From positions 6,094,279-6,158,278 of the forward strand of contig NZ_CM001240.1 of the NCBI RefSeq assembly GCF_000230835.1: a stretch of 64,000 bases of DNA, read 5' to 3'. Below, one piece after another: positions 31,729 to 49,475 of the stretch. The notes beneath the pieces were generated by a model. That model did no database searches. It was not told the DNA's origin and saw only the letters and a list, made by a program, of their open reading frames with translations. Within the stretch, counting starts at the first letter, position 1. Every line of letters starts with the position of its first letter. The DNA is from Clostridium sp. DL-VIII (GTDB lineage: Bacteria > Bacillota > Clostridia > Clostridiales > Clostridiaceae). The translations under genes and the position numbers were made by a program.

Positions 31729-32284
31729 AGATATTTACCCCTTACTTAATGTAGATCTGTTATTTATAGTGACTGGACAGTCAAAAGTTCTATAAAAAAA
31801 GTTAACCCCTTTAGGTAAATTTATAGTATCCTTTTAATTGCTCAAGAAAAAAAGGAGATAAAATCTACCAAAAGAATCAACTTAAATTAGTTTATCATAA
31901 TATTGGTAGATTAACTATAGATTTATGTGGAATTTGTTAAATAAAATTTTAGCCAACTTTAGAAAATGTTTTTCAAGGCAAGCTCCGCTTAATTACTTTT
32001 TTATAATTTATAACAGACATAATGTATTTTCCTCCAATTATAATATAATACAAGTTATAGCAACAAGACAAACTGCACCTAGCAATACTTGTTCGACATT
32101 TAATATACTGGATGCCTTTTTTGCATGGACAGAAAAACATTAACAAATCAGAAGCCGTTAAGAAAGGCTTTATATTATACATTAAATCATAAAAAAATTG
32201 CAAAAGAAGCTATTTTTTTCAATACGGTAGATGTTCCACCGCTTACACATTATCTTTCTAATTTAATATAAAATTATGAATAAA
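31729..32284. other. intergenic stretch without a supported gene
   Basis: Holds a perfect 12-bp palindrome GACTGGACAGTC-like segment at 31771-31782, a TCTACCAA/TTGGTAGA inverted repeat (about 31865-31917), and a 15-codon minus-strand reading frame (MSVINYKKVIKRSLP) behind a good TTGGAGG site (about 31981-32043). The upstream minus frame has Cys-rich stretches (FFCPCKK, CSLSCCYN) but no matching start. I see no convincing gene; it might be debris of an additional Cys-rich peptide gene. Confidence 0.4.
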
Positions 32285-32332
32285 AAAAGTATCCTTGTAT
32301 ATAATAAATATATAAGGATACTTTTTTATATC
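32285..32332 (-). terminator. terminator of the RiPP operon
   Basis: AAAAGTATCCTT pairs with AAGGATACTTTT around an AT loop; T or A runs flank both sides. Confidence 0.85.
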
Positions 32333-32391
32333 CTACTTACTTTATGTAAGTAGTATCTGAAAATAGACAATTATCTATTTATTTATAAAAA

Positions 32392-32592
32392 TTAATGACC
32401 TGCTTTAAATGCTACACTATAATTGTCATCACTATTTTTAGAATTACAATTACATTCACAACTAGGCATTCCTGGGAACCATGATACATTGTATGTGCTA
32501 CTACTTCCACTGTTGCAATAACAATGACATCCTCCCATTACCATAGTTTCTTCTGTTTCTGGTCTTCTGTTTAATGGATTAACTATTTTCAT
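32392..32592 (-). CDS. Cys-rich RiPP precursor peptide (ranthipeptide/Clo7bot-like)
   Basis: 66 residues, start ATG 32592 with GAGAGGAAG upstream. A charged leader (MKIVNPLNRRPETEETMVMG) precedes a core with two CxCxC clusters: CHCYCN (residues 22-27) and CECNCN (49-54), separated by a Ser/Thr-rich stretch and WFPGMP. It is the last gene of the operon, 59 nt after the radical SAM/SPASM gene, with a hairpin in between that could set precursor levels apart from the enzymes. Small Cys-rich peptides beside such maturases in clostridia are thioether-modified (ranthipeptide/SCIFF-type chemistry) or belong to the Clo7bot and CLI_3235 families. Which family this one joins, and the crosslinks formed, cannot be settled by reading. 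Confidence 0.82.
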   Translation of the reverse strand: MKIVNPLNRRPETEETMVMGGCHCYCNSGSSSTYNVSWFPGMPSCECNCNSKNSDDNYSVAFKAGH

Positions 32593-32651
32593 ACTAAAAA
32601 CTTCCTCTCATATTTTAATTAATAATTGTCTATTTTTCATGCAATTAATTA

Positions 32652-34172
32652 TTAGTTGACTTCTATTTTGGATATTTGACCTATTCTTTCTGGATAATCT
32701 TCTAAAACTTGATGATAATAAACTAACCAAGATAGATATCTATTCCTTAAATTTTTACATATGTTTCGTTTTTTCTCAATATCAATTCCAGACTCATCAT
32801 AACAATCTGCATAGCAAATATCACATAGACGGACAGCCCAACATTTAGAGCAATCTTGTATGGATTCCTCTTCATATTTATTTAAATAATACTTTTTAAC
32901 TGCTTCCTCATTTAAACCAGTATCTACATTTCCTATCACTGGCGAATCTCCAATACGTTCACAAACTTTATAGTTGCCATCTGTACAAACATATAATCTT
33001 CTTTGACCTGGAAGACAACATCCATTATAATAATACAGGTCTAATGGCTTGTCTCTTAAGATTCTATTGTGTATTTGAGTTAGTGAAGCTTCTAAAACAT
33101 ATGAATAAATATTATGTGTCTTATGATTAGAAACACTTTCTCTAGTCTTCTTAATTGCCCAATCAAACCATCCATCAGCAATCTGATAGTCATCATAACC
33201 TTTATTTTTTAATTCATCAAAATAGCTTTCAGGCACAGTACCTTGGGATGGATAAGTAACTCGTACTTCTGTGTCATCTGACAAGAAATCTAAGGATTCA
33301 AAAAATCTATTTATTTTTTCTAAACGTTCTACTGTATATGGTGGCAATAAAACTGCATTAACTGTGATAGTAGTATTTTTGTATTTATTAATCGCTTCCG
33401 ATAATATTTTAAGGCCTCTAAATGCATCTTTAAATGTCGGTTTACCATCGACATATACCCTAGCAGTATTTTGAACTTCCTCTGGCCCATCTAAGCTCAC
33501 AACAATACTTAAATTAGGAATGCGTGCCAAGTAATCTGCTATTTCCTTTGTAATTAATGTTAAATTTGTAGTCAATGAAAAGCTTAAATTGCAGTCCTTG
33601 AGATGCTCTAATGAATATTCTATACACTGTTTCATTACATCAAATTTTACTAATGGCTCTCCACCATAAAAAGTTATAGCTAATCTCTTATTGCTACGAT
33701 GTAAATATATATAATCAATTGCTTTTTTTGCAGTTTCAAATTCTATACTTTCAGTGTTAAAATTTCTAGTTCCATCATTATAATCATTATAAATACAATA
33801 CTTACATCTCAAATTGCATTTACCTGTCAATTCAATTATTAATTGCTCCATTTGCAAATTTTCTTCTTTAATTTTATTTTCTAAAGGTATGAAATGCTTT
33901 ATTTCTGAATTACAAAGCAAATTTTCTTCGTTAAAAAAATCAGTAACATTATCTATATTTTTATTTTCATCAGCTATATTTCTAAGTTGTGATGCACAAA
34001 TATTTTCATCAAACAATCCAGTAATAAATGGTGAACTTTCATCATCCAACTGAACAACTTTACCTGTGCCCGTATCATATAAATAATCGCTTTTATCAGT
34101 AGAAAAAGTAGCCCCTAATCTATAGATATCTCCTGTTTCTTTTTCTTTAATTAAACTATTAATACTTATCAT
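32652..34172 (-). CDS. radical SAM/SPASM peptide maturase (CcpM-like)
   Basis: 506 residues. An N-terminal peptide-recognition-like region (about 1-105) precedes the radical SAM domain with its CxxxCxxC cluster motif GKCNLRCKYC (C119, C123, C126) and FYGGEPL motif. The C-terminal SPASM region has NGCCLPGQRRLYVC, KVCERIG and CSKCWAVRLCDICYADC with a late C, enough Cys for two auxiliary iron-sulfur clusters. Enzymes of this type make thioether or carbon crosslinks in RiPP precursors; the Cys-rich peptide encoded next is the obvious substrate. It abuts the permease gene without a gap, so translation is probably coupled. Confidence 0.93.
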   Translation of the reverse strand: MISINSLIKEKETGDIYRLGATFSTDKSDYLYDTGTGKVVQLDDESSPFITGLFDENICASQLRNIADENKNIDNVTDFFNEENLLCNSEIKHFIPLENKIKEENLQMEQLIIELTGKCNLRCKYCIYNDYNDGTRNFNTESIEFETAKKAIDYIYLHRSNKRLAITFYGGEPLVKFDVMKQCIEYSLEHLKDCNLSFSLTTNLTLITKEIADYLARIPNLSIVVSLDGPEEVQNTARVYVDGKPTFKDAFRGLKILSEAINKYKNTTITVNAVLLPPYTVERLEKINRFFESLDFLSDDTEVRVTYPSQGTVPESYFDELKNKGYDDYQIADGWFDWAIKKTRESVSNHKTHNIYSYVLEASLTQIHNRILRDKPLDLYYYNGCCLPGQRRLYVCTDGNYKVCERIGDSPVIGNVDTGLNEEAVKKYYLNKYEEESIQDCSKCWAVRLCDICYADCYDESGIDIEKKRNICKNLRNRYLSWLVYYHQVLEDYPERIGQISKIEVN

Positions 34173-35387
34173 TTACCTTCCTCCTTCATACTTCTCATAA
34201 AAATATCTTGTTAAAAAAGCTCCTAAAATTATATTCAATATTGCTGCAGCAGTTATTACATATGGAGATCTAATAAAATAATAGTAATTACATCTCACAA
34301 GTTCTCCATAAATATCTATCCCACTACTTGGAAAAAGATCCCCTATAAAATAAACTAAGTTTGGTGCACTAGGCATACTTTGAATAATAATTGGTGCTAT
34401 TAATATAGCAATAGAAAATGCCAAAGCATATATTGGTGACTTAATTCTAGAAGATATACATAATGTAATAATGATCACTGAAATCACAGAGATTATCCCT
34501 AGTAAAATTGTTTGCATAAATACTTGTCCAATTGTATATGGACTACATGAAAATATACTTATAAGTTGTATAGGATCTTTCAGAGCCTTCACGCCAAAAA
34601 GCATAGCACATGATAATGTATATCCTCCCATATAAACTATATACAAAATAATTCCAACTATTGACATAGCTATAGTTCTAGATAATGCAAGTGCTTTCCT
34701 ACCATGTTTGGTTGTTCTAAAAACAACATCAGCTCCATTCTGATAATTACCAGAGAATAATTGTACTGCTAATGTACAACATAAAAATGTAATTATCCTC
34801 ATACTTAGTCCCAATTTATCAAGTGCAGAATCCCAACCTACTCTCGGATAATAATAAAATGGTATGTCTATTTTTTCTGCTCTTTTTTGTTCTAATTCAT
34901 ATGCCTTTGTATTTCCTTTTAACTGCTGACCAAGATACTCATTTCTAGAATTTTTGAGTTTATCATAAAATTTCGATATATCATTTCCAGATAGCTTGTC
35001 ATATATTTTAGAATAATTATAATTAACATCTATACCGTAAACCCACTGTATTAAGCTTTTCTCACCACTATAAGGATATACATCTTTTACAAACACATCA
35101 TCTGGAGTAGACTCACCATACTTTTTGTAAATTTCTTTCTGCTTTTCAAAAACATCAGCTAAATGTTTTCCAGATAACTCTGTTTCTTTTTGAACTTGTT
35201 GTATATTATGCACAGCATCTAGACCTGATAATGTTGTAGATTGATTATTATTCAGTACATATCCATTTTCTCCATACGTTGAAAGAATAGATAAACCAAG
35301 TGATAATATTATCAAAATAAAGAAAATAATTACAGTATTGCGCATTTTTAATATATGTTTCAATTCTAATTTAATAAGTCTTAACAT
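34173..35387 (-). CDS. ABC-2 type permease of the RiPP operon
   Basis: 404 residues. One N-terminal membrane helix (about 17-36), a long extracytoplasmic domain (about 40-205, with repeated YxKxYxKL and KNSRNEYLGQQLKG segments) and five C-terminal helices give the usual ABC-2 exporter permease layout. It ends one base before the radical SAM gene and begins six bases after the ATPase gene, so it pairs with that ATPase. In peptide loci such pairs provide immunity or extra export. The role is inferred from context. Confidence 0.85.
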   Translation of the reverse strand: MLRLIKLELKHILKMRNTVIIFFILIILSLGLSILSTYGENGYVLNNNQSTTLSGLDAVHNIQQVQKETELSGKHLADVFEKQKEIYKKYGESTPDDVFVKDVYPYSGEKSLIQWVYGIDVNYNYSKIYDKLSGNDISKFYDKLKNSRNEYLGQQLKGNTKAYELEQKRAEKIDIPFYYYPRVGWDSALDKLGLSMRIITFLCCTLAVQLFSGNYQNGADVVFRTTKHGRKALALSRTIAMSIVGIILYIVYMGGYTLSCAMLFGVKALKDPIQLISIFSCSPYTIGQVFMQTILLGIISVISVIIITLCISSRIKSPIYALAFSIAILIAPIIIQSMPSAPNLVYFIGDLFPSSGIDIYGELVRCNYYYFIRSPYVITAAAILNIILGAFLTRYFYEKYEGGR

Positions 35388-35393
35388 ATTTCC

Positions 35394-36281
35394 TCACCCT
35401 AACTTATAATTTTTAATCTCTTCTTTGAACTCCCACAAATATACATCTTCTAAAGTAGGAACACAGCTTTGCGCATTTTCAAATATTTGATTATCACTAA
35501 CATATCTTACCTCTAATTTATTATTATCCCCATAATGAATGTTAATAATATTTTCTTGTTTCAATAAAGAGTTAACTTCATTTTCGGTACCATAGGCAGT
35601 CCATATTTTACCTATAAGATTACTTATTAATTTTTCTCGATTTCCAACTGATATAATTTTACCTTGCCTCATAATGATATTTTTTGTTGATATATTTTCA
35701 ATGTCCGATACTATATGAGTTGATATAATAACTATTTTATCTTTTGCATACTCCGATACAAGCTGTCTAAATCGAATTCTTTCTCCTGGATCTAGCCCAG
35801 CTGTTGGCTCATCAAATATTAATATTTTAGGTTTGTTTAATAATGCTTGTGCTATTCCTACCCTTCTTTTTGTTCCACCTGATAATTGACATACTTTCCT
35901 CTTTGTATATTCTGTTAAACTTAATACTTCAATTAACTTATTAATTTGTTTCTTTGCCTTTACATAAGGTACGCCTTTTAATCCTGCCATATACTCCAAA
36001 TAATCCTTTACTGTAAATGTTCCATCGCAGCCAAAATTTTGCGGTAAATATCCAAGAATACTTCTATATTCACCACCTAGCTTTAGCACAGGTTGGTTTT
36101 CAAAATAAATAGCACCACTATTAGGTTTTAATATATCACATATAATATTCATTAATGTTGTTTTTCCAGCACCATTAGCCCCAATTAGTCCCCATATTCC
36201 ATTAGAAACTTCTATATTAACATTATCTACAGCCTTTTTACCTGAAAAATTTTTACAGATATTGTTTAATGTTAATTTCAT
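35394..36281 (-). CDS. ABC transporter ATP-binding protein of the RiPP operon
   Basis: About 295 residues from ATG 36281, which has AGGAGG eight bases upstream (the frame also reaches 36299). Walker A is GANGAGKTT, the signature LSGGTKRRVGIAQ and Walker B ILIFDEPTAGLDP, followed by the switch His (STHIVSD). It resembles the ATPases of two-component ABC-2 lantibiotic-type exporters (BcrA/NatA group) and is paired with the permease downstream. The C-terminal 70 residues are the short regulatory tail seen in that group. Self-immunity or antimicrobial export is plausible. Confidence 0.92.
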   Translation of the reverse strand: MKLTLNNICKNFSGKKAVDNVNIEVSNGIWGLIGANGAGKTTLMNIICDILKPNSGAIYFENQPVLKLGGEYRSILGYLPQNFGCDGTFTVKDYLEYMAGLKGVPYVKAKKQINKLIEVLSLTEYTKRKVCQLSGGTKRRVGIAQALLNKPKILIFDEPTAGLDPGERIRFRQLVSEYAKDKIVIISTHIVSDIENISTKNIIMRQGKIISVGNREKLISNLIGKIWTAYGTENEVNSLLKQENIINIHYGDNNKLEVRYVSDNQIFENAQSCVPTLEDVYLWEFKEEIKNYKLG

Positions 36282-36292
36282 TTCATTTCCTC

Positions 36293-38098
36293 CTAACATG
36301 CATTATCTACAGATTTATTCAACTTATCTGTCTGTGTAGAATATAACTCATAATAAAGTCCTTTATTATTTACTAATTCCATATGTTTACCTTGTTCAAG
36401 AATTACTCCTTCTTTCATAACTATTATTTCATCTGCTAATGATATACTCGAAAACCTATGTGTAATAAATATTGCCAATCTTTCTTTTTTATTAGAATTT
36501 ATTTGTTGAATAATATGATTTTCTGCTTCTACATCAATAGATGAAAATGGTTCATCAAATATACATATTAAACTATCACAATAACAACATCTTGCTATCG
36601 CTATTTTTTGCCACTGCCCCTGAGATATATCCGTTCCATACTTCCAATCTTTCATTAATAATGTTTCTTCTTTAAATGGTAACCCATCAATTAAATCTTT
36701 TATACCTGCTATATTAACTGCCTTAGAAAAATATGTTTCTTTCTTTTTATTACCTCTTACTGCAATATTATCATGTATGCTGAATGGATATTTTATGAAA
36801 TCTTGAAAAATAGCACTAATATTTGAATAGTATTCTTCATCATTAATTTCTTGCAGATTAATTCCATCTATCAATATTTTTCCCAGAGTAGGTTTATATA
36901 ACTTTAACAACAATTTAATTAAAGTTGTTTTTCCTGAACCATTAAGACCTACAATAGAATATGTCTTTCCAACTTCGAATTTAAAATTTATATTTTTTAA
37001 TGCAAATTTTTGATTTTGGGGATATTTAAATGAAACATTTTGAAATTCAATACACGAAATTTTACAATCTATTCTTCTATTAATTTCATCGGCTTGAATA
37101 TTTGTTTTTTCTATAACATCTAGTGATCTTAGATATAAAATACTATTATGCAATACAGAAATTTGATTTGACAATTCGATAATTGATGATTTTAAATTAT
37201 CTTGTGCATTAAAATATAACACAATAGTTCCCAGACTACATTTACTTTCAATAGATAATATTAAAATCCAAACTTTAAGAAAAGTCGAAATTATTTCATC
37301 TAATCCTTGAGCTGATACCTTCTTTGCTAATAGGATTTTCCTAGCTTTTTTATCATTCTTTAAGAACTTTAGATAATTATCTTTTATAATTTGTACTATT
37401 TTAAGCCCAATTCCATACAACTTTATTTCTTTAATATTTTCGTTTTTAATTAATATCATTTTTAGATAATTAATTAATCTAAATTTTTCTGTACGTTCAA
37501 AAAATACATTATACCAATATGTGTTTGTTTTTAAAGAAATATATAATGCTGGTAATGCTGAAACTACACTTACAATAACGACCTTCCAATCAAATTGTAT
37601 TATTATAACTATAACCCCGATTGCTTTAATAATAGAATAAATGCATTCTGATATTGAATCTAATAGACTCAAACAATTTTGTGATGTATGAGATATAGCC
37701 ATATTTATATGATTATATGTGTCTGAATCATCAAACATTTCCATGGAAAATTTCAAACTTTTCTTCAATATCATTTCAGTAATATGCAAGTCTAACAAAT
37801 CGCCATATGTCTGTTTGATATATTGTAAAATTCCATTTAATAAATATCCTAGTAGTGTAACTATTGATAGCAATATCAACGATTCAATTCCTATATTTAA
37901 CCATTTTTCTTGTGAAATCATAATTACTACTACATCTAAAAACTTCTGCCATATTAATAAATTAATAGGTGCAATTAAACCTGTTAAAATACTTACACCG
38001 AATATTAGTATTAAATATATTGGTGAAGCAGACAGTAGTATATAAATAGCTTTTCTCAATAGCATTAACTTCTGCTTGAAATTCAATTTATCACTCAT
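36293..38098 (-). CDS. ABC exporter, fused membrane and ATPase domains
   Basis: 601 residues. Five or six membrane helices in about 20-320 precede a nucleotide-binding domain with Walker A GLNGSGKTT (near 395), a divergent signature ISQGQWQKIA, Walker B LICIFDEPFSSID and switch TH. There is no N-terminal C39 peptidase domain, so leader removal must be done by another enzyme, consistent with the M16-type gene just upstream. The half-transporter would act as a homodimer to export the modified peptide. The stop overlaps the next reading frame, showing tight operon packing. Start ATG 38098 has GGAGTG upstream. Confidence 0.92.
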   Translation of the reverse strand: MSDKLNFKQKLMLLRKAIYILLSASPIYLILIFGVSILTGLIAPINLLIWQKFLDVVVIMISQEKWLNIGIESLILLSIVTLLGYLLNGILQYIKQTYGDLLDLHITEMILKKSLKFSMEMFDDSDTYNHINMAISHTSQNCLSLLDSISECIYSIIKAIGVIVIIIQFDWKVVIVSVVSALPALYISLKTNTYWYNVFFERTEKFRLINYLKMILIKNENIKEIKLYGIGLKIVQIIKDNYLKFLKNDKKARKILLAKKVSAQGLDEIISTFLKVWILILSIESKCSLGTIVLYFNAQDNLKSSIIELSNQISVLHNSILYLRSLDVIEKTNIQADEINRRIDCKISCIEFQNVSFKYPQNQKFALKNINFKFEVGKTYSIVGLNGSGKTTLIKLLLKLYKPTLGKILIDGINLQEINDEEYYSNISAIFQDFIKYPFSIHDNIAVRGNKKKETYFSKAVNIAGIKDLIDGLPFKEETLLMKDWKYGTDISQGQWQKIAIARCCYCDSLICIFDEPFSSIDVEAENHIIQQINSNKKERLAIFITHRFSSISLADEIIVMKEGVILEQGKHMELVNNKGLYYELYSTQTDKLNKSVDNAC

Positions 38099-38123
38099 TA
38101 CATCACTCCATAACAGATATTAT

Positions 38124-39254
38124 TTATTTTTTAGATTTTCTCGCATTTTTTATAACTATTTTTATTGGCTGATGAGTAATATAATCTAAATGTTCAAATA
38201 TTCTTTCATCTATGACATCTGCTAATTCCAAAACATTTTTCAAATCAAAAATTGGTATATCATACAATACATAGTTGTAAAATTTATTGATCCAATCCTC
38301 ATTACTTTCATCTTGCAAAGACCATTCTTTTATATACTTATAAAAGAATTTTTTATAATAGAATAATTCTTTAACAGTATTTCTTTTCTCTAAACATCTT
38401 CTTAATTTATTTGCTGTATTATTTGAAGTATCTACAGTGATATCAATTACAGTAATCACTATATATCTCTCTGAATAAGTAAAATATTTTTCCTTTACAT
38501 AAGTATCAGTATGAAAATATTTTTGGCATAGATATTGTAAATAACATAATATAAACTCTTTAATTATTGATTCTTCTATACTTAAAATATTATTTATTTT
38601 AAAATATAGGTCGATTGTACATTTCTTATCTTCTATTTCATTAATATGTAAAACCATATCTTTATCGAATATACATTCACTTATTTTTATTTTTTTAGCT
38701 AATTTATCTTTTTCAATTATAGCTTTCACTTGTTCTTGTATTTCTCTTTTTTCATTGAACCGAATTTTATAAAATATATTTTTTCTTTTTATATCATTTA
38801 GCCAAGCTTCAACATCCTTGTATGTTATTTTGCTAATCTCATCAATTTTTCCCATAGCAAAATAACCAATTCTATTTTCTGTTACAAATCTAACTATTTT
38901 TTCTCTCTCAATAGTGATTTTTTCCATACCAATACATTCATTTATCACTTGAACTTTTGCTCTTTCTACATTCTGAGTATTTATTATATCTCCATTCTCT
39001 ATCAAATCATCTATATAATTAATCCATTCTTTTTCTTCTTTTATTGCTGTATAATATAAACATGCATGATCCAAACATGTATAGCCATATGCATATTTTA
39101 AAGATGGCTTTTTTAATATACTATAATATGGCATTAAGCATACATGTTCGCCAACATGAGCTAATCCACTGAATTTTTCTTTTTCTTCTATTCCTTTTGC
39201 AATTAATATATATAAATGTTCATATTTAGAATCGTATATATTATTTAAATTAAT
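38124..39254 (-). CDS. M16-type metallopeptidase of the RiPP operon, non-ATG start
   Basis: The frame is open from just after TGA 39263-39261. The first ATG (39134) would leave out FSGLAHVGEH, which contains the inverted zinc motif HxxEH of M16 peptidases; the third ligand fits E66 after that ATG (VERAKVQVINEC), 70 residues after the motif's Glu. I therefore place the start at ATT 39254, seven bases after GAAGGTG; ATT 39257 is an alternative. A lost base in the T run near 39244-39246 would instead open a longer frame from TTG 39275. About 376 residues, near single-domain M16B size. M16 proteins in peptide loci trim precursors, fitting an exporter without a C39 domain. The rest of the protein is diverged. 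Confidence 0.7.
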   Translation of the reverse strand: MNLNNIYDSKYEHLYILIAKGIEEKEKFSGLAHVGEHVCLMPYYSILKKPSLKYAYGYTCLDHACLYYTAIKEEKEWINYIDDLIENGDIINTQNVERAKVQVINECIGMEKITIEREKIVRFVTENRIGYFAMGKIDEISKITYKDVEAWLNDIKRKNIFYKIRFNEKREIQEQVKAIIEKDKLAKKIKISECIFDKDMVLHINEIEDKKCTIDLYFKINNILSIEESIIKEFILCYLQYLCQKYFHTDTYVKEKYFTYSERYIVITVIDITVDTSNNTANKLRRCLEKRNTVKELFYYKKFFYKYIKEWSLQDESNEDWINKFYNYVLYDIPIFDLKNVLELADVIDERIFEHLDYITHQPIKIVIKNARKSKK

Positions 39255-39296
39255 AATATTTCACCTTCTTCCAATAAAAACTTTATTATTTATTCT

Positions 39297-39395
39297 TTAT
39301 AAATAATAAATTTCACTACTGTTTAAACATTGATTGAAATTACCATTGACAAATTTATTATAATAATCATTCTCTTGATATTTGGTACACTCCAT
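39297..39395 (-). CDS. possible 32-residue leader peptide or remnant upstream of the M16-type gene
   Basis: A short frame from ATG 39395 (also ATG 39401) with AGAGAAG upstream, ending 37 bp before the M16-type gene. It is polar, Asn- and Tyr-rich, with two Cys (MECTKY and NQCLNSS). It could be a tiny leader, an accessory precursor, or chance. No family recognised. Confidence 0.3.
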   Translation of the reverse strand: MECTKYQENDYYNKFVNGNFNQCLNSSEIYYL

Positions 39396-39576
39396 AAACA
39401 TGCTTCTCTAATACTTTATTATTTATTGTGCCTATTCAGTTGCCTTAACCACATATTCTCACAATATCAAAATTAAGTAAATATATTTTTCATTAAACGT
39501 ATATTTTCAAGTATTAAACGCTATATCTTATTTATTTTTTTGCAAGTATTCTTTTTATTCTTAAAAAGGAAAATAT

Positions 39577-39927
39577 ATGTTTGGTGGTATAGGCATGCTT
39601 GCGGGAAATAACACAAAGATGTTCTGTCTTCCTCTTTTAATTAATCTCAAAGATGGTGTTAAAACTATCCGAAACTGGATATAGTCTTAAGAACAACATA
39701 AATCTCATATTGTTCAAATGATTCAAAATGGTTTTTCAATCAAAAAAACTTTAGTGGAAAAATCAATTCTACTTTTAGATAGATATTTTCTTTCTGTTCC
39801 TGCACTTATAGCCTTAAATAAGCTAAATGAGGAAAATGGTAGTTTACTGCAAATTGTAACAAAAGCAACAGTAGCAAGCTACTTGCGTAAAAACATTTTT
39901 CGCATTATGTGTAAAAATACGAATTAA
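39577..39927 (+). pseudogene. decayed DDE transposase fragment
   Basis: The plus-strand segment encodes MFGGIGMLAGNNTKMFCLPL, then LINLKDGVKTIRNWI, two stops (39679-39690), then SHIVQMIQNG and SILLLDRYFLSVPALIALNK with LQIVTKATVASY. The order (FCLP..., hxDGVKTI, LLLDRxFLSVPAL, QIVTKAK) matches the catalytic middle of an IS4-like transposase as found in clostridia. Both ends are missing and internal stops are present, so it is a remnant. It lies just upstream of the RiPP operon, which could have been acquired with mobile DNA. Confidence 0.7.
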
Positions 39928-40000
39928 GCATAACTAAAATAATTAAAAACAAGCAAAGAAATCCTTCATTTTATGAGGATTTACAGGTTTGTTAAATGAA

Positions 40001-40056
40001 CAAAAAAAGAGCCCTTAATTAGTTTTTAACTAATTTAAAAGCTCTTCTTTTTTAAT
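40001..40056 (-). terminator. terminator of the giant glucan synthase gene
   Basis: Minus-strand AAGAGCTTTTAAATTAGTT pairs with AACTAATTAAGGGCTCTT, followed by TTTTTTTG. Confidence 0.85.
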
Positions 40057-40081
40057 TGGTAGTTCAGTTCTTAACTGCTAA

Positions 40082-43000
40082 CTAATTAAAGTATACAGTT
40101 ATATCTAATTTACCCTTATTCCTTGGAATTATATTATCTTTTACTGCTTCTCCGTTAATCACTACTTTAGTATTACTTCCAATATCCAGCTCAGCATTCT
40201 CCTCTAATCTAGAAGCTTTTATAATATATTCTTCTTTTTCATTTGTAATCTTTATCTCAAATTCCTTCCAATCTTTTGGAACGCATGGATTTATGCTGTA
40301 TCCTTTATCTTTTACTTTTCTTAAGCCTAAAATATTTTCTATTCCAACCCTATACATCCAGCCTGAAGCTCCTGTATACCAGCTCCAGCCTCCTCTTCCT
40401 GCATGAGGCTCCTTTATGTAAACATCCGCTGACATTACATATGGTTCTACTTTATAAGTCATGCATTCTAATTCTGTCTTTGAATGGTTTATAGGATTTA
40501 TCATATTATAGTATTTGACTGCCTTATCTCCAAGCTTAAGCTTAGTTAAAGCTAAGATTACCCATACGGCTGCATGAGTATACTGCCCTCCATTTTCTCT
40601 TACTCCTGGTACATAACCTTTTATATAACCTGGTTCTAATTCTGAATTACTAAATGGTGGTGCAAGCAGCAAAATCATACCCTTATCGCTCTTAACAAGA
40701 TTATTATCAACAGCTTCCATTGCTTCCATTGCTCTTGTTTTACTATCTACTTTAGGCTCAAATTTGTATTCATCATCAAAGGCTCCTGAAATTATGGACC
40801 AGCTTTGAGCTAAGGAATCAATCTGGCATTCTGGATTTTCCCTTGAACCAAGTGGAGTTCCATCATCAAAATACGCTCTCCTATACCAGCCTCCATCCCA
40901 TGCATTTTTCTCTAAATTTTCTCTTATAAAGCCTTTTCTTTCTTCATAGTGTTTTTTTGTTTCCAGATCATTTCTTATTTCTGAAATTTCAATAAAGCTG
41001 TTTAAAATGGAGTACAAAAACCATCCAAGCCATACACTTTCTCCTTTTCCTTTATTTCCAACAGTGCTCATTCCATCATTCCAATCTCCGCTGCCCATTA
41101 AAGGAATGTTATGAATTCCAAATTTTAAGCTTTTCTCTATGGCCTTCAAACAGTGCTCATATATGGTACCTTCCTTTGAAGATTGATTAACTATTGTATA
41201 TCTCTCATCTTCGCCTTCTCTTAAAGGTTCATCTTCAAGATAAGGAGCTTTTGCATCTAAAATATCATAATCTCCTGTAGAATTAACATATTCTGCAGTT
41301 ACATAAGGAAGCCATAGAAGATCATCACTAAATCTGGTCCTTATTCCAGAATTAACAACTGGATGCCACCAATGCTGTACATCTCCTTCTACATATTGCC
41401 TTGATGCACTTCTTAAAATCTGTGCTTTTGGTATTTCAGGCTCTACAACTCCAAGAGACATGGAATCCTGAAGCTGATCTCTAAAACCATATGCTCCTCC
41501 ACTTTGATAAAATGCACTTCTGCTTAAATACCTACAGCTTAAGGTTTGATATAAAAGCCATCCATTTAAAAGATGGTCTAAAGATTTATCTGGTGTCTTA
41601 ACTTGTATATTTCCAAGGAAATGTCTCCAATATTGTTTTACTTTATCTAATTCATCTTCTACATTTGCAAAATTACTGTATTTTTCTATGAATTTTGCTA
41701 TATTATCCTTTTCATCCTGGCCAAATAAAACTACTAATTCCTTCTTTTCACCTTTTCTTAATTTAAAAGTAGTTTGAGCTGCCAAGCATGGATCATAAAT
41801 CCCCCCGAATTTATTATTTAAACTCTTACTGCTTAATGCCTGTGGCTTAGCTGTTTCCCCACCAATCCCTATAAATTCCTTATTATCTCCAGTAAAACTT
41901 GTTTCTTCTCCACCTATAATTGTTAAATAAGCATTTAATTTTCCAAAGTACTCACTATAAGGATTATGCGCTCCTATGAATCCATTACTAATTTCATTCC
42001 CGCTGCCTTGATTTTTCTTTATATATGTAGAAATATATCTTGCACTATCATACTCGTAAACTCCTAGAACGAGTTTTGCATAGTAAAATAATGAAAGTTC
42101 TCTATCCTCATTACTTAAATTCTCCAAGGTAACCCTTTGAAGCTTTATTCTTTCATTTTTAGGTGCAAAAACTTCAAGTTTCCCTTTAAGCTCATAGGCT
42201 GTATGCTTATATTCTGAATATCCAAAACCATGCTTTATTATATAATCTCCTGAGTCTCTAACTGGTTTTGGTGTTATTGAAAAATACTCACCAGAATTAT
42301 TATCTCTGACATAAAGAGCTTCTCCGGCTGGATCTCTAATATAATCATTACTCCAAGGTGTTATCTTGTTTTCTCTTGAATTTCCACACCAAGTATAACC
42401 TGAACCTGTTTCCGATATGTGAAATCCAAAATCTTCATTAGAAATAACATTAATCCAAGGTGCTGGAGTATTCTTATAATGTGATAGTTTAATCACATAA
42501 CTATTATCTTTTTTATTAAAGCCTCCAAATCCATTAAAGAAATCTAAATCTTCTATTTTAAAATCCTCATTAACCTCATCGCTAAAAGTCATATTAATTG
42601 AAGGTTTAGCTTCATCGTTGCAACCCATGTTAATTGAAGTTTCAGCTTCATGGTTATAACCTATATTAATTGAATTTTCGGCTTCATCTCTATTAACTTG
42701 CTTATCTTTATATTTATCAACTTCTAAAGTCAACTCCTCAGCAATTTCGTTAGCAGCCTTCTTCATATTATTTTTGTAGCTTTCCGGCTCATTTACTTTT
42801 TCATTCTTCCTGCTCAAATCATGTTGTTTTTCTGGCCCCTTAGTATTTTTAATCAAGTCATAGTTATTTATTACTTCTTCATCATTATCATATACTTCAT
42901 ATGGTATATCCCTTAAAGTTTCTTCCTTTTGTATATCCTTTAACTCTTCCTGCTTTGATATATCCTCTGAATTTTCTTCCTTCTTATATTTATCTATAAA

Positions 43001-46000
43001 CCTTGAATTGTTTCTAAGGGCTATACGTGAATCTAAACCTTCTGCATCTAAATTCATATAAGTATTTAAATTTTTCTCTGAATATACATAGGAATTTAGA
43101 CTATTCTTGCTATCTAAATATATCCTTGAGATTCCTATTAATAAATCTTTAGTTTCAGAATCCATAGTGGCTTTAGTATGCACGAAGATTCCACCTGATT
43201 TGTTTAGGGAATTTCTTTCATTAGAAGTTCTTATTATATCCATTATATTTTTTTGAAGGGGTGCTTCATAAGTAACTTCCTCATTATTATATATAACTAA
43301 ATCTAATTTAACTCCTTTTAGTTTTAAATAATGATGAAATTTTACAGCAGTAAACGCTATGTTTACATCTTCTCCTTTTTCAATAAATAACATTATAATA
43401 GGTAAATCTCCTGAGATGCCATAAGCCCATAAATCCTTTTGATGCTTTGAAATATTCTCAATATAATTTTCTCTGTTTTCTCTGCTGCTGCTTAAGAAGA
43501 ATATATTACTTGCAGCACTTTGGAAAGCATTAGCCATTGCACTTCTTATTCCTAAATTCTTAAGCTCAAGCTGTGTACTTATGCTATAATTCTTGAATAC
43601 TATATCAAGTTTTTTATAGTCATTATATTCTCTGCATATTTCAAGCACCTGTTCCTTTGAATCGCATATTCCTGTAATATAATAAATTTCTCTTTTAGAT
43701 TTTGCTTCTAATCTAATCCTTGTACGCATACTCATTATAGGGTCTAAAACTGTTCCCACTGTATTATTTAAAGCTTTATCATTATCCATGACCAATGGAT
43801 TCTTTAATTCCCTGTCTCTGCCTATAAAATTTAGCCTAGAAGTTTCATAGGATAAGCTTCCTTCCAGCTCACCATTAACAACTGCCTTGTGGAAGACATA
43901 AGGAATCTTTCCATCTTTAACTCTTGGTCTTCTGCTGCCTATAAGTATCTCTTCTTCTGAATCATATTCAGTCTGAACAAATAAATTAGAAAAGGCTGGA
44001 TGGACTGCATCTGCACTAAAGGCCGCTAAAGTTATTTCTATATAACTTGTTATCTCAACACTTCTTCCTTTATCGCTCAAATTATTTAAAGTGAGCTTTC
44101 TTACTTCAAAATTTTCTTCTGAAGAGAGTACAACTTCCATTTCAGTTTCAATGTTACCATCTTTTCTGCTAAACTTTGCTTTATCTAAATTGAATTCTAC
44201 TAAATATTTATCTCCAGAACTCTTACAAGGTTCATAAGTTGAGCTCCAGTAATCATTAGAATTTAAATTCTTTATATAGAAGAAAACTCCACTATCATCG
44301 CTTGTTGAATTTCCTTTCCATCTATAAAGCATAGTATCATTTTTCTTTGAATATCCGCTTCCACCCACTGTAATCATGGATGAATAGTCTCCATTACTTA
44401 ATAACAAAAACTGTGGACTATCTTGATTTACTTTTTCGAATATCCTTGGAATTAATACTTCTCCCTTAAAATATCTATTCTTTATAGAAAAATCTTCATT
44501 TCTTTCAAATGTTACATACTGTGGTATTCTTTCCTTTAATAAGAGTTCAGTCGCCTTAACTTCTGGCAGATCATGAAATCTATTAACTAATATATTATTT
44601 AGCAATACATTATCCAAAGACATGAGTGACATTCCTAAATGATGTACCATGTAAGTCATAACTTTGTTAATGCTTTGTGGATAACTTAAAACCTTAGAGC
44701 CTCTGATATTCGCATTATTTATATGTTTTTCGTTATTTTCCTCAAAATCATCCACATTATCAACATTATTCACATGGTTTTCAACAATATAACCTTCTTT
44801 TTTATCCCTTACATTATCCACGCTTTTTAGGAGGTTATCCACAGATTCTTCATACTTATCCACATTTTGTGCATAATTTTCTTCAGCTGTTGATATATTA
44901 TTGTTATTTAAAGTACTATTTGCAACTTTTAATTCAGCTTCATTTTCTGAAAGTGTCATTATATATTTATCACTTCTTGCTTTAGTATAATCCAAAGCTT
45001 CAATGAACCCATATCGTCCTAAAGCTCCTATATCTTCAAGCCTTCTAAGATTTTTAATTGCAGTATTTTTAGCAAAAGGAAGAACCATTAAAGTTGAGTA
45101 TGGGGATATTACAAGATCATCTTCAAGACCTCTCTTTAAGCCTAGTCCTGGAACTCCAAACGCCTTATATTGATAATTATCAGAAGGATCAAATTCATAA
45201 AATGCAGATTCTGATATTCCCCAAGGAGTTTTCTTTTGTTTTGCAAAACTTATTTGAGCTTTTATTACAGCCCTATAGGTTTGACTGAGTAAAGTTTTTG
45301 GGTAATTCTTCATTATGAGTGAAGGCATAAAATATTCAAACATAGTCCCACTCCAAGATACAAGAGAGTGGCTGTGAAATGCATTCGTCATCGCTCTTCC
45401 AAGCTTAAACCAATGAGACGAAGGCACATCATCTTTAGCTATAGCAACAAAAGATGCTATTCTTGATTCTGATGCCAATAGGTCATAATATGAATTTCCA
45501 AGTGAATTCTCTTCTACATTATATCCAATAGAAAACAAACCTCTGGTTTTATCATAAAGAAAATTAAAGTCCATTTCCTTTGAGATACCATCAATATCTT
45601 CTATTAAATGATTTATTTTATTTATGTAATTTCTTAAGGTATCAATCTTTTGTCCTAAGGAACATTTAAAGTTATCCCCATTTTTTCTTTTTACTTCCTC
45701 GCATCTCTTTACTAATTCTTTAATACTCGGAACACCCTCAAAAAATTCTCTGCTATATATATTTTCTAAGCCGTCAAACATGAGATTGTAATACTCTATT
45801 TTCCTATTAACCTCATTTATAAGCTTGTTAATCCAATACCTTGTTTCTTTATTTTCAGGCTTTGCCCCATTTTTATTATAATCATTTTCCTTTGATGCTC
45901 CCCCCAATATATTTTCATTATCCTTTAACTCATTAAGTTTAAATGAGATCTCGATTAAGGTTTTAAAATATTCTCCAATATTTATATGTGATGAAAATTT

Positions 46001-49000
46001 AAGTTTAAGAAAAGAATCTTCATCTTCAATTATCTTATAAATATCATTTAAAGCTATTACCTCTTTAGTTCTTATTACTTTATTGCTTTTAAGTTCATTT
46101 AAAGTTTCTTTTAGCAGCCATAAGTCTCCTAGAAGATTTCCACTATCAACGGTTGATACATATCTCGGCCATAAGGGCTCTTTTGTTTTCGTGTCATACC
46201 AGTTTAAATAATGGCCATTTACTTTTTGCAGACCTTTCATGCTATTTAATATAAGCTCTGTTCTATCAACAAACTCTGTCATGGTTATATATCCTAGGTC
46301 GTATGCAACAATATTAGAGGTAATACCCATACCAATATTGGTTGGAGAGGTTCTATGGGCAACGCCCTTAAGTGGTTTTTCCTGATAGTTATCTGGTGCT
46401 AAATAATTGTTTTCTTCATTAACAAAATCCTCGTAATATGCATATATTCTTCTTGAAACTTTTCTAAGGAATGTTTTTTCATCATTACTTAAAAGATTTT
46501 TATTTCTTTCTGGTATCTTCTTACTTATAAAATAAGCGAAGTAAGGAGCGACAATCCAAAGGCCAGCAACCACTATATTATAAGCAATAGCTCCAAGAGA
46601 ACTATATAGTGATAAATAAAGTACTACTATTCCAACTACCGGAGAAATCCACATCCTCCTTAAGTAATTAGTAAAATCATTATTTATTTTTTTCTCCACA
46701 TGATCTGCTGATTGCCATTCTAAAAGATTTCTTTTAGAAATAAGAACTCTAAATAGTGTTACTATTATTGCATGAAGCATTAAAAAAGCTTGATAAGGAA
46801 TAAAACTTACTATTAACACCATCTGGTCAAAGGTCTTAAATGTTCCCATTAATTTATTTTTAGGCGTTACAACGAAATCCGTTACTGTAAATACTAAAGG
46901 TACTATTAATGCTAAAAAAGCAAGTAATACAATTTGACTTCCATTATTTAAGACAGTCAAGGATAAAATAAGAGTAAGAAGTAAGTTAGGTGCCAGTAAA
47001 CTTCTCCTTAAATTATCGAATATCTTCCACTTATATAATAAACTCATTTTATTTGAAAATAGCCAGCCTATTAATTGCCAGTCTCCTCTGACCCATCTAT
47101 GCAGTCTTCTGGAGCTAGCCTCATAGGATCCAGGATATCCATCAATAAATTCTACATCACTTAAAAGTGCACATCTTGCAAGACCACCTTCAAGTAGATC
47201 ATGACTCAAGATCGTATCATCTTTTATAGAATTATGCAGTGCCTTATAAAATTCGTCTATACATATTATTCCCTTACCCGTAAAAGAACCTTCCCCAAAT
47301 AAATCCTGATAAGTATCAGAATAAGCTACTGAATACCCATCTACACCTTCTTCTCCTCCAAAGATTTTCGAAAAATAAGTCTGATTTTTAGCTTCTAAAC
47401 TTATACTTACTTTAGGCTGCATTACTGCATATCCCCTAGCTACCTTGTTTCCTATTATGTGTGGAATATTTAAAACATGGCTCATAGCACCTATAAGTTT
47501 AAAGATGCTTTCTCTTGGCATAAAAGTATCTTCGTCCAGCGTAACTAAATATTTAGCATCTTTAAGTATTTCTATGTTATCACTAAGAACATTATATGTA
47601 TGATCCTTTCTATCTCTGATAAGAGCCATAAACTCCATCAATTTTCCGCGTTTTCTTTCCTTTCCCATATATACTCTTTGCTTCTTATTATAAATCCTCT
47701 GCCTGCTCAAAAAGAAAAATCTACTTTCACTATCATTCATAAAGTCGTTATAATATTTTTCATTTAAGCGTCTAGCACATTCTATTCCAGATTTAATTAT
47801 TTCATCATCTTTTTCTACGCTTTCATACTCAGAATCTGAAAAGTCATTAAGCAAAGCAAAATATAAATTTTTATCTTTATTACCACAATAAATTACTTCT
47901 AATTTTTTCATAAGTTCCTGAATCTTTTCTTTTGAACTTACTATTGCCGGAATTACAACTATTGTTTTATATTTATCAGGAATTCCTTCAATGCAATTTA
48001 ATTTAGGAACTAATCTTATATCACCAATTTTGCTCACAGTATAATTAGTAAGAGCAATTACGATTTCGTTTACCGGAATTAATAGAACTAGGAACGAAAG
48101 CATATATTGCATCCTAGTATAGACAGCTCCGAGTAAGGTACTCACAAACAAAATCAAAAAACTCAAGCCTATTGTCCCAAGAATATTGGACAATACATAT
48201 ACATTTTCTGAAATCACAGTTCTTATATTATTGCTGTATCTTTTTAACTCATTTACCCCATCATCTATTAGGTAGTAACCAATATGACATTTATAACTTT
48301 CTTCCTTATTATCTTTGCTATTTTGTGCAAATCCTAAGATATAATTTGCAACATCAATCTCATTCATTCCAGCAGTTCTAGCTATTTTCTCAAGTTTATG
48401 CCTATAATAATCCTTAGATTCAAAATCCATTTTATTATAAACATCTTCTGGATCTTTTTTTAGAATCTGCTCAACTAAAGAAGTGCTTTCAAAAAACCTT
48501 CTCCAGCTTATTCCTTCTATTTTTCTAATAGAGGTTATGTATTCACCAATATGCCTTTCTAAGGATTCTTCCCGCAATTCACTTTTAATATTATTACTTT
48601 CTAAATCAGTGTTCATTTTCCACTTAGATTCTATAAACTTATCAACTCGTTTATCCTCTATGGAATTATCTCTTAAAACTCTAAAAAATTCTCTTAAGAA
48701 TAAATTGCTTATATTTTTGCCCTCAGAAAAAATACTGCTGATCTCATCATCCAATTTATTATTGTTAATGGCATCAACAACTTTCTCAGCTAAATTTTTT
48801 CCTTTTATAATTTCCTTTTGAATATTAACAAGTTCATTAGTATATTTAGATAAGTTTATAATAATTGCTATCTTCAGCATGAGAGGAAATGCCCATAATT
48901 CTCCCATTGTAAAAATCTTATCCTTATTAAAAGACTTTTCGTTTGTATTCTTCCCTTGAAGTTCATTTATATAACTTATAAATTTATCGCAATCAATTTC

Positions 49001-49321
49001 ATTTCCCGCATTAATATAATTTTTCGCCACCATAAAAATACGTGGAACCAATTCCTCATTTTCATGATCTTTATCATTATTAATTTCACCTATGGAAGAT
49101 AACCCTCTGAAATAATCTATAGGCATTTCAACTTTTATTGCTTTATATTCTCTTTCAATCAAATATATATTATCAAGAAGCCATTCAGATGCCCCTAGCA
49201 TCTTATCTCCATTTTTTGATAACTTACGAAAGTACATGAAATTATCATGGATGCAAGAAAAGCCTTCTGCAAGTTCTCTTAAAACACTCTTCCTCACTCC
49301 ATAAGAATTATTTCTCTTCAA
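40082..49321 (-). CDS. cyclic beta-1,2-glucan synthase-like giant enzyme (NdvB/ChvB type)
   Basis: About 3079 residues from TTG 49321 (AGGGAG eight bases upstream); ATG 49342 adds seven residues but lacks a site. A helical head precedes membrane helices (about 390-440) and a GT84-type glycosyltransferase with TLDEDTFMPRES (near 605) and RRLHRWVRGDWQ (near 740). More helices (about 780-930) lead to a long glycoside-hydrolase-like middle and a C-terminal GH94-type phosphorylase domain with GAYGFRDQLQDSM (near 2617) and GSGDWNDGMS (near 2754, general-acid Asp). These enzymes build, size and close cyclic beta-1,2-glucan. Two low-complexity insertions (about 1480-1550 and 2110-2265) make it longer than usual. 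Monocistronic. Confidence 0.93.
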   Translation of the reverse strand: MKRNNSYGVRKSVLRELAEGFSCIHDNFMYFRKLSKNGDKMLGASEWLLDNIYLIEREYKAIKVEMPIDYFRGLSSIGEINNDKDHENEELVPRIFMVAKNYINAGNEIDCDKFISYINELQGKNTNEKSFNKDKIFTMGELWAFPLMLKIAIIINLSKYTNELVNIQKEIIKGKNLAEKVVDAINNNKLDDEISSIFSEGKNISNLFLREFFRVLRDNSIEDKRVDKFIESKWKMNTDLESNNIKSELREESLERHIGEYITSIRKIEGISWRRFFESTSLVEQILKKDPEDVYNKMDFESKDYYRHKLEKIARTAGMNEIDVANYILGFAQNSKDNKEESYKCHIGYYLIDDGVNELKRYSNNIRTVISENVYVLSNILGTIGLSFLILFVSTLLGAVYTRMQYMLSFLVLLIPVNEIVIALTNYTVSKIGDIRLVPKLNCIEGIPDKYKTIVVIPAIVSSKEKIQELMKKLEVIYCGNKDKNLYFALLNDFSDSEYESVEKDDEIIKSGIECARRLNEKYYNDFMNDSESRFFFLSRQRIYNKKQRVYMGKERKRGKLMEFMALIRDRKDHTYNVLSDNIEILKDAKYLVTLDEDTFMPRESIFKLIGAMSHVLNIPHIIGNKVARGYAVMQPKVSISLEAKNQTYFSKIFGGEEGVDGYSVAYSDTYQDLFGEGSFTGKGIICIDEFYKALHNSIKDDTILSHDLLEGGLARCALLSDVEFIDGYPGSYEASSRRLHRWVRGDWQLIGWLFSNKMSLLYKWKIFDNLRRSLLAPNLLLTLILSLTVLNNGSQIVLLAFLALIVPLVFTVTDFVVTPKNKLMGTFKTFDQMVLIVSFIPYQAFLMLHAIIVTLFRVLISKRNLLEWQSADHVEKKINNDFTNYLRRMWISPVVGIVVLYLSLYSSLGAIAYNIVVAGLWIVAPYFAYFISKKIPERNKNLLSNDEKTFLRKVSRRIYAYYEDFVNEENNYLAPDNYQEKPLKGVAHRTSPTNIGMGITSNIVAYDLGYITMTEFVDRTELILNSMKGLQKVNGHYLNWYDTKTKEPLWPRYVSTVDSGNLLGDLWLLKETLNELKSNKVIRTKEVIALNDIYKIIEDEDSFLKLKFSSHINIGEYFKTLIEISFKLNELKDNENILGGASKENDYNKNGAKPENKETRYWINKLINEVNRKIEYYNLMFDGLENIYSREFFEGVPSIKELVKRCEEVKRKNGDNFKCSLGQKIDTLRNYINKINHLIEDIDGISKEMDFNFLYDKTRGLFSIGYNVEENSLGNSYYDLLASESRIASFVAIAKDDVPSSHWFKLGRAMTNAFHSHSLVSWSGTMFEYFMPSLIMKNYPKTLLSQTYRAVIKAQISFAKQKKTPWGISESAFYEFDPSDNYQYKAFGVPGLGLKRGLEDDLVISPYSTLMVLPFAKNTAIKNLRRLEDIGALGRYGFIEALDYTKARSDKYIMTLSENEAELKVANSTLNNNNISTAEENYAQNVDKYEESVDNLLKSVDNVRDKKEGYIVENHVNNVDNVDDFEENNEKHINNANIRGSKVLSYPQSINKVMTYMVHHLGMSLMSLDNVLLNNILVNRFHDLPEVKATELLLKERIPQYVTFERNEDFSIKNRYFKGEVLIPRIFEKVNQDSPQFLLLSNGDYSSMITVGGSGYSKKNDTMLYRWKGNSTSDDSGVFFYIKNLNSNDYWSSTYEPCKSSGDKYLVEFNLDKAKFSRKDGNIETEMEVVLSSEENFEVRKLTLNNLSDKGRSVEITSYIEITLAAFSADAVHPAFSNLFVQTEYDSEEEILIGSRRPRVKDGKIPYVFHKAVVNGELEGSLSYETSRLNFIGRDRELKNPLVMDNDKALNNTVGTVLDPIMSMRTRIRLEAKSKREIYYITGICDSKEQVLEICREYNDYKKLDIVFKNYSISTQLELKNLGIRSAMANAFQSAASNIFFLSSSRENRENYIENISKHQKDLWAYGISGDLPIIMLFIEKGEDVNIAFTAVKFHHYLKLKGVKLDLVIYNNEEVTYEAPLQKNIMDIIRTSNERNSLNKSGGIFVHTKATMDSETKDLLIGISRIYLDSKNSLNSYVYSEKNLNTYMNLDAEGLDSRIALRNNSRFIDKYKKEENSEDISKQEELKDIQKEETLRDIPYEVYDNDEEVINNYDLIKNTKGPEKQHDLSRKNEKVNEPESYKNNMKKAANEIAEELTLEVDKYKDKQVNRDEAENSINIGYNHEAETSINMGCNDEAKPSINMTFSDEVNEDFKIEDLDFFNGFGGFNKKDNSYVIKLSHYKNTPAPWINVISNEDFGFHISETGSGYTWCGNSRENKITPWSNDYIRDPAGEALYVRDNNSGEYFSITPKPVRDSGDYIIKHGFGYSEYKHTAYELKGKLEVFAPKNERIKLQRVTLENLSNEDRELSLFYYAKLVLGVYEYDSARYISTYIKKNQGSGNEISNGFIGAHNPYSEYFGKLNAYLTIIGGEETSFTGDNKEFIGIGGETAKPQALSSKSLNNKFGGIYDPCLAAQTTFKLRKGEKKELVVLFGQDEKDNIAKFIEKYSNFANVEDELDKVKQYWRHFLGNIQVKTPDKSLDHLLNGWLLYQTLSCRYLSRSAFYQSGGAYGFRDQLQDSMSLGVVEPEIPKAQILRSASRQYVEGDVQHWWHPVVNSGIRTRFSDDLLWLPYVTAEYVNSTGDYDILDAKAPYLEDEPLREGEDERYTIVNQSSKEGTIYEHCLKAIEKSLKFGIHNIPLMGSGDWNDGMSTVGNKGKGESVWLGWFLYSILNSFIEISEIRNDLETKKHYEERKGFIRENLEKNAWDGGWYRRAYFDDGTPLGSRENPECQIDSLAQSWSIISGAFDDEYKFEPKVDSKTRAMEAMEAVDNNLVKSDKGMILLLAPPFSNSELEPGYIKGYVPGVRENGGQYTHAAVWVILALTKLKLGDKAVKYYNMINPINHSKTELECMTYKVEPYVMSADVYIKEPHAGRGGWSWYTGASGWMYRVGIENILGLRKVKDKGYSINPCVPKDWKEFEIKITNEKEEYIIKASRLEENAELDIGSNTKVVINGEAVKDNIIPRNKGKLDITVYFN
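42579..42687. repeat. three 36-bp in-frame repeats inside the giant enzyme gene
   Basis: Encodes EAENSINIGYNH, EAETSINMGCND and EAKPSINMTFSD in tandem, within a low-complexity insertion. Confidence 0.75.
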
Positions 49322-49475
49322 GTAAAAAACTCCCTTCTTCATGTAATCTAAAAATAATTACTTAACGGAGATATTTTTACCAAAATTATAAAAAGTATTC
49401 TTAATTTATTTATGTAATGCTCTTAATAAAATTATCCAATTGCACATTTGACCTTAATGTTATGCAATAGTTTTA

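Follow-up and report, generated by a model that had tools for sequence, protein, structure and literature searches.

A probable ruminococcin C-like sactipeptide operon with a divergent M16 peptidase gene in Clostridium sp. DL-VIII

Ruminococcin C (RumC1-5, matured by RumMC1-2) of Ruminococcus gnavus and the CA_C0660 family of putative sactipeptides are the described systems closest to the six-gene operon analysed here. The operon lies in a 64-kb stretch (64,000 nucleotides; the window) of the genome of Clostridium sp. DL-VIII, a single 6.48-Mb contig from the same genus as G051. RumC1 carries thioethers between Cys3 and Asn16, Cys5 and Ala12, Cys22 and Lys42, and Cys26 and Arg34 (PMC8172795). 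Its radical S-adenosylmethionine (SAM) maturase, RumMC, has the cysteine motif CX3CX2C and CX13GX4CX36CX2CX5CX2CX18C, and the R. gnavus operon contains putative proteases and ATP-binding cassette (ABC) transporters (PMC6779426). In Clostridium acetobutylicum, CA_C0658 (an Fe-S oxidoreductase) and CA_C0660 are both among the genes affected by adhE deletion (PMC4845359). The best explanation of the operon in the window, which we hold to be probable as a whole, is that it makes, cross-links, trims and exports a ruminococcin C-like sactipeptide of the CA_C0660 family and is passed as one block from one Clostridium genome to another.

The operon occupies window positions 32392-39257 on the minus strand and encodes, in transcription order, an M16-type protein, a fused ABC exporter, an ABC ATPase, a permease, a radical SAM/SPASM enzyme and a 66-residue precursor, followed by a hairpin and a U run (Table 1). 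An initial annotation had proposed a compact operon for a ribosomally synthesized and post-translationally modified peptide (RiPP) at 32392..39260; all of its features were found in place on the minus strand, and the tight spacing that it described corresponds to gaps of 25, 11, 6, 0 and 59 nt when the ATPase start is taken as 36281. The precursor has cysteines at positions 22, 24 and 26 and at 45, 47 and 49, and scored 81.6 bits over residues 1-63 of 66 against NF035954 (CA_C0660 putative sactipeptide precursors; cut-off 60). With an E value of 3e-23 against a curated family, and with the gene set recurring at other loci, the operon is beyond chance. No match at E ≤ 1 was obtained with NF035950 (RumC family precursors; cut-off 40 bits), and the NCBIfam profile search listed neither a CLI_3235 nor a Clo7bot model for it. 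The initial annotation was right in reading a RiPP system; as to the families whose profiles it suggested for a check (ranthipeptide, Clo7bot, CLI_3235, CcpM), the group is instead that of the ruminococcin C/CA_C0660 sactipeptides.

Ten distinct precursors of relatives, including that of Clostridium puniceum, were scanned with NCBIfam: L005, L006, L017 and L066 scored above the NF035954 cut-off, L008 and L013 above the RumC cut-off, and L007, L009, L010 and L041 below both. In an alignment of 26 precursors, the leader and an N-x-x-x-N...A tail recur in most rows, and CxCxC stands at both places in eight (window, L084, L005, L006, L009, L017, L066 and L042, the last with further cysteines), as it does in the L041 precursor. 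Other cysteine patterns are 2+2, the RumC type (L008, L013, L015), 2+3 (e.g. L010, L012, L018, L019) and 3+2 (L007, L014, L034). This range of patterns (2+2, 2+3, 3+2, 3+3) suggests that the cysteines form a modular ladder for stapled hairpins. When mapped through the L008 row, RumC1 itself being outside the alignment, the places of RumC1 Arg34 and Lys42 would correspond to Ser54 and Phe62 of the window precursor. Between the window and a second copy of the operon in G030, another genome of the genus, the ratio of non-synonymous to synonymous substitution rates (dN/dS) is 0.60 for the precursor, on few sites, and 0.15-0.32 for the other operon genes. The family is rare, since NF035954 was above cut-off in 2 of 147 relatives and 1 of 391 class genomes, the own genome counted in both; NF035950 gave three weak matches over the 391 class genomes, none above cut-off. 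In a protein search, the precursor matched nothing but the protein of the window itself.

The maturase contains CX3CX2C and the longer RumMC motif with its exact spacing. This spacing is also exact in 35 of the 43 maturases tested, the sister clade included, and thus marks a wider group. Of seven maturases scanned with the RumMC equivalog NF035951, those of L008 (920 bits) and L013 (958 bits) score above the cut-off and the remaining five do not. Assignments to CcpM (TIGR04068; 252.4 bits, cut-off 500), PapB (132.6 bits, below cut-off) and the SCIFF maturase (103 bits, below cut-off) were rejected. The same holds for the anaerobic sulfatase maturases (TIGR03942; 79.5 bits, cut-off 349.45), so that the first of the two refuting outcomes named by the initial annotation did not occur. 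Four of the six operon proteins were submitted to PADLOC, where the maturase alone was matched, by radical SAM models of the viperin type.

To follow the gene set elsewhere, 79 loci were fetched by the maturase alone, L004 and L007 (C. puniceum, same frames) being counted once. Of the 42 loci whose maturase scores at least 238 bits, 22 have an M16 gene (profile score >100 bits), as against none of the 37 below; these 22 amount to 20 distinct loci, the maturases of L028-L030 being identical. The M16 profile was made from these same hits and may miss remote M16 genes. In 24 of 24 loci (window, G030 and the 22 fetched), the maturase strand also carries, within the fetched DNA, the M16 gene and an exporter, the latter 562-633 residues long. 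The L014 M16 gene and the L034 exporter are more than 9 kb, and the L020 exporter more than 5 kb, from the maturase, with other genes between; the L034 M16 frame extends to the contig end. A cysteine-rich precursor frame is present in related M16 loci, so that the second refuting outcome named by the initial annotation did not occur either. Each part of the proposed combination of RiPP precursor, radical SAM maturase, exporter without C39 domain and M16 protein with intact zinc site was upheld, and the combination occurs in 22 of the 79 loci. L008 and L013 possess an M16 gene and a C39-less exporter, and their precursors and maturases are above the RumC and RumMC cut-offs; the M16 gene thus belongs to RumC-type clusters too. 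On a maturase tree of 43 rows (41 different; score at least 200 bits and >380 residues), M16 presence requires 5 changes compared with 14.3 in shuffles, related rows not being independent. Excluded from the tree was L042 (9992-12521), a related cluster with a split maturase frame and a split M16 frame.

None of the listed ABC frames, all of them with a matching Walker motif, showed a crude C39 pattern, and no leader peptidase was recognised among ten proteins scanned from L025, L026 and L032. The rule that a cluster has either a C39 exporter or an M16 gene is unsupported, the sister-clade exporters of L025 and L026 being without C39 by Pfam. In L025, a VanZ-like gene follows the exporter. Beside the sister radical SAM peptide cluster of Enterococcus raffinosus (L032, 13655-18303) are genes for an S11 D,D-carboxypeptidase, a D-Ala ligase, a VanY-like protein, an acyltransferase and an alanine racemase.

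The M16 frame runs from 38124 to 39254 or 39257, and the segment AHVGEHVCL is encoded 5' of its first ATG (39134). No ATG, GTG or TTG occurs upstream of 39134 back to a TGA at 39261-39263. Across the 40 codons upstream of this ATG, the 92%-identical G030 copy differs by four synonymous and three non-synonymous changes (dN/dS 0.15), and neither alternative frame is open there; the upstream frame is thus coding, and the 'hidden' M16 frame of the initial annotation is real. The zinc site (H33, E36, H37, E106) is intact in an alignment of relatives, and the protein has the M16 fold, to which residues from 5 on belong. Pfam (PF00675/PF05193) gave no match for the 336- or 376-residue form, and the PF00675 gathering score was reached by the M16 proteins of four of five relatives tested, L005 being the exception. 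Judged against 3000 random 20-mers from the window's minus strand, the Shine-Dalgarno region before the ATT (-14.1 kcal/mol) is equalled by only two, while the internal ATG lacks one (-3.5 kcal/mol; 1552 as strong). Both GAAGAAGGTGAAAT of this region and the ATT-ATT are unchanged in G030. An ATG lies near the corresponding place in L005 and L006, and a Met stands at the second-ATT column in the metagenome proteins P0007 and P0008. Translation seems to start at the ATT behind the extended Shine-Dalgarno, a start codon read in two genomes (window and G030). The database holds a 336-residue version of the protein (P0002), and the metagenome entries P0003 and P0005 of the M16 clade begin after the catalytic motif, which makes the enzyme easy to overlook. 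The probable trimming enzyme would escape annotation partly because its gene seems to start at the rare ATT.

The block 32247-39308 is 94.9% identical to the G030 copy at about 901.4-908.4 kb, and the flanks of the window match G030 at other places (long matches, 74-85% identity). The operon therefore stands in different chromosomal places in two species. These flanks are 8.5-8.6 kb apart in the window, and ~0.9 kb (G034) and ~1.8 kb (G038) apart in genomes without the operon; in G065 they are ~3.0 kb apart, with only a 21-nt chance-like match. In G030 (L084 5490-8251), genes for a LytTR response regulator, a GHKL sensor kinase and AgrB lie directly upstream of the operon copy, and no AgrB match was found within the 64 kb of the window. 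The initial description of a complete set overlooks this agr-type regulator, absent in the window. Of the loci, 11 have AgrB-like genes, some of them with an M16 gene and some without. In L005 (17594-20994 and 12048-12563), an apparent agr-type set (regulator, kinase, AgrB), lying downstream, and a small sigma-factor-like gene accompany a related cluster; only AgrB was matched by search.

Based on the biochemistry of RumC (PMC6779426, PMC8188230), the radical SAM enzyme would be guided by the leader (MKIVNPLNRRPETEET...) and would link the cysteine sulphur atoms in both CxCxC motifs to alpha-carbons further down the peptide; the result would be a pair of stapled hairpins with perhaps four to six thioethers. 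The M16 protein would remove the leader, with or before the C39-less exporter that would secrete the peptide; gene linkage and the M16 leader peptidases of other RiPPs (PMC10885120) suggest this role. The ATPase/permease pair may protect the producer from a presumably antibacterial product. Translated from the ATT behind its extended Shine-Dalgarno, the M16 protein would probably be scarce because of that start codon. A more elaborate version, possible but doubtful, is a mobile operon for a six-thioether double hairpin (three bridges each), the M16 leader peptidase being rationed by its AUU start and extended Shine-Dalgarno, and trimming and activation being held back by initiation fidelity (initiation factor IF3).

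Several points weigh against the proposed sactipeptide pathway. The maturase scored 498.4 bits against the RumMC equivalog NF035951, below its cut-off of 720. RumC is released after Lys19 (PMC8188230) and needs trypsin for activity (PMC6779426); in the window precursor, by comparison, residues 11-21 include neither Lys nor Arg, which makes cleavage by a dedicated peptidase the likelier route. M16 enzymes are built of two halves (PMC12731061), and PttP1/PttP2 are heteromeric and serve another peptide class (PMC10885120), whereas a single M16 gene is found in the operon, whose peptide is a putative sactipeptide. The sister clade (13 maturase rows, of which L021 comes from a contig of 3.2 kb) has no M16 gene, and such of its exporters as were seen lack C39 as well. 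M16 is thus not a general need of C39-less exporters, nor does a missing C39 by itself call for M16, and the role of leader peptidase that the initial annotation gave to the M16 protein stays a conditional one. Three further M16 genes are located elsewhere in the genome.

Other products of the operon were also considered. A ranthipeptide system of the same architecture, with thioethers on beta or gamma carbons, is rather improbable: among solved structures, 5wgg/5why, presumably the SCIFF thioether enzyme CteB, come closest to the maturase, whose matches also include ranthipeptide maturases of the PapB type (132.6 bits), but RumMC scores higher (498 bits) than CcpM (252), PapB or the SCIFF maturase (103), the SPASM spacing is exactly that of RumMC, though shared by most maturases tested, and the precursor family aligns with RumC-family precursors over the C-terminal NxxxN...A region. 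CxCxC can serve as a metal-ligand motif too, yet a metal-binding rather than thioether-bridged peptide is extremely improbable with a radical SAM/SPASM maturase adjoining a precursor from a curated putative-sactipeptide family, whose RumC relatives have four cysteines in the same frame. We likewise give little credence to a product that is mainly a signal or self-regulatory peptide tied to agr-type regulation and not an antimicrobial. The regulator, kinase and AgrB genes upstream in G030 and the agr-type-looking genes downstream in L005 favour it; against it, the dedicated ATPase/permease pair would resemble an immunity transporter, the window has no AgrB match and AgrB-like genes occur irrespective of M16.

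The M16 protein itself could have a different part to play. M16 enzymes, insulinase for example, break down many peptides, and the sister clade does without an M16 gene, so the protein might degrade unmodified or stray peptide for quality control or immunity instead of trimming the leader. This is unlikely, given that the gene shares its strand with maturase and exporter in every M16 locus, that M16 leader peptidases are known in other RiPPs (PMC10885120) and that no other peptidase family was matched in the operon. It is very unlikely that the gene is truncated or decayed and translated from ATG 39134 into a dead protein, as the lack of ATG, GTG or TTG ahead of HxxEH and the 336-residue database version might indicate. 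The upstream codons are under purifying selection, the start region is unchanged in G030, the internal ATG lacks a Shine-Dalgarno, residues from 5 on are part of the fold, and L005/L006 and P0007/P0008 have an ATG or Met at or near the same place; on the same grounds a pseudogene was rejected.

Among the accessory features, the exporter matched Pfam ABC_tran above and ABC_membrane below cut-off, with no C39 peptidase domain among its Pfam matches, as first claimed. The ATPase probably starts at the inner ATG 36281, which has a better Shine-Dalgarno than 36299; NCBIfam listed 25 models for it, GldA and lantibiotic-protection types among them, all below cut-off. The permease, without a Pfam or NCBIfam match at E ≤ 1, recurs beside the ATPase in several relatives. 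The claimed terminator was recovered by folding the 141-nt stretch 32260-32400 (z of stretch -5.9), though a GC-rule scan missed it. Rfam gave nothing above gathering score over 31900-40100, and the 75 hits of a promoter scan were close to the number expected from shuffling (64.8, sd 8.8). Three small flanking frames had no Pfam match. A short frame at 39718-39927 on the plus strand, upstream of the mobile block and without Pfam match, resembles a transposase remnant by eye. A single 3086-residue frame at 40082-49342, with GH94 and glycoamylase-type domains, probably encodes a cyclic beta-glucan synthase-like protein.

Table 1. Features of the operon in the window.
Feature	Position	Strand	Remarks
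Extended Shine-Dalgarno region GGAAGAAGGTGAAAT	39258..39272	-	Strongest in operon, -14.1 kcal/mol
M16-type zinc peptidase, divergent, ~376 aa	38124..39257	-	ATT start 39257-39255 or 39254-39252; HxxEH at 33-37, with E106 as third ligand
Fused ABC exporter (membrane part + ATPase), 601 aa	36293..38098	-	Without C39 peptidase domain
ABC ATPase, probable immunity transporter	35394..36281	-	Alternative start 36299
Membrane permease, 404 aa	34173..35387	-	ATPase partner by position and co-occurrence in several relatives
Radical SAM/SPASM maturase, RumMC type	32652..34172	-	N-terminal region aligns with 5why; CX3CX2C; SPASM cysteines spaced as in RumMC
Sactipeptide precursor, 66 aa, two CxCxC motifs	32392..32592	-	Member of NF035954
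Probable rho-independent terminator	32283..32327	-	14-bp A/U-rich hairpin, inner 5-bp stem; 3' arm ends in U run
Homologous block shared with G030	32247..39308	.	Whole operon, terminator and ~50 bp upstream; 94.9% identical

In comparison with ruminococcin C, the precursor has a similar short leader, N-terminal CxC, C-terminal Cys i/i+4 and NxxxN...A tail, the maturases agree in domain order and SPASM cysteine spacing, and the RumC-family loci L008 and L013 also have an M16 gene and a C39-less exporter. It differs in having six cysteines instead of four, in the lack of an NF035950 match, in a maturase below the RumMC cut-off, and in the lack of Lys and Arg from residue 11 to 21, unlike RumC with its Lys19 release site (PMC8188230) and trypsin requirement (PMC6779426). 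The window precursor is a direct member of the CA_C0660 family by score, and Clostridium acidisoli (L017, 87.2 bits) also has maturase, M16, precursor and exporter genes in a row. In the window, G030, L005 and L006, however, the M16 gene lies upstream of exporter and maturase, and its product is shorter and divergent. Among sactipeptides, the subtilosin A cluster encodes the M16-type proteins AlbE/AlbF, subtilosin A being head-to-tail cyclic with three thioethers. The class III lanthipeptide enzymes PttP1/PttP2 likewise exemplify an M16 zinc peptidase in RiPP maturation (PMC10885120). In the available parts of the literature searched, no named M16 peptidase for RumC-type sactipeptides was found; the name CA_C0660 occurred in one paper and CA_C0659 in none. 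The 'putative proteases' of the RumC operon (PMC6779426) may be M16 proteins. With an M16 gene on the maturase strand at 22 of the 79 loci, two of which exceed the cut-offs for RumC and RumMC, leader removal can be put to a direct test. New in this operon are the six cysteines, the divergent M16 protein and the ATT start; otherwise, it is a variant of known sactipeptide systems.
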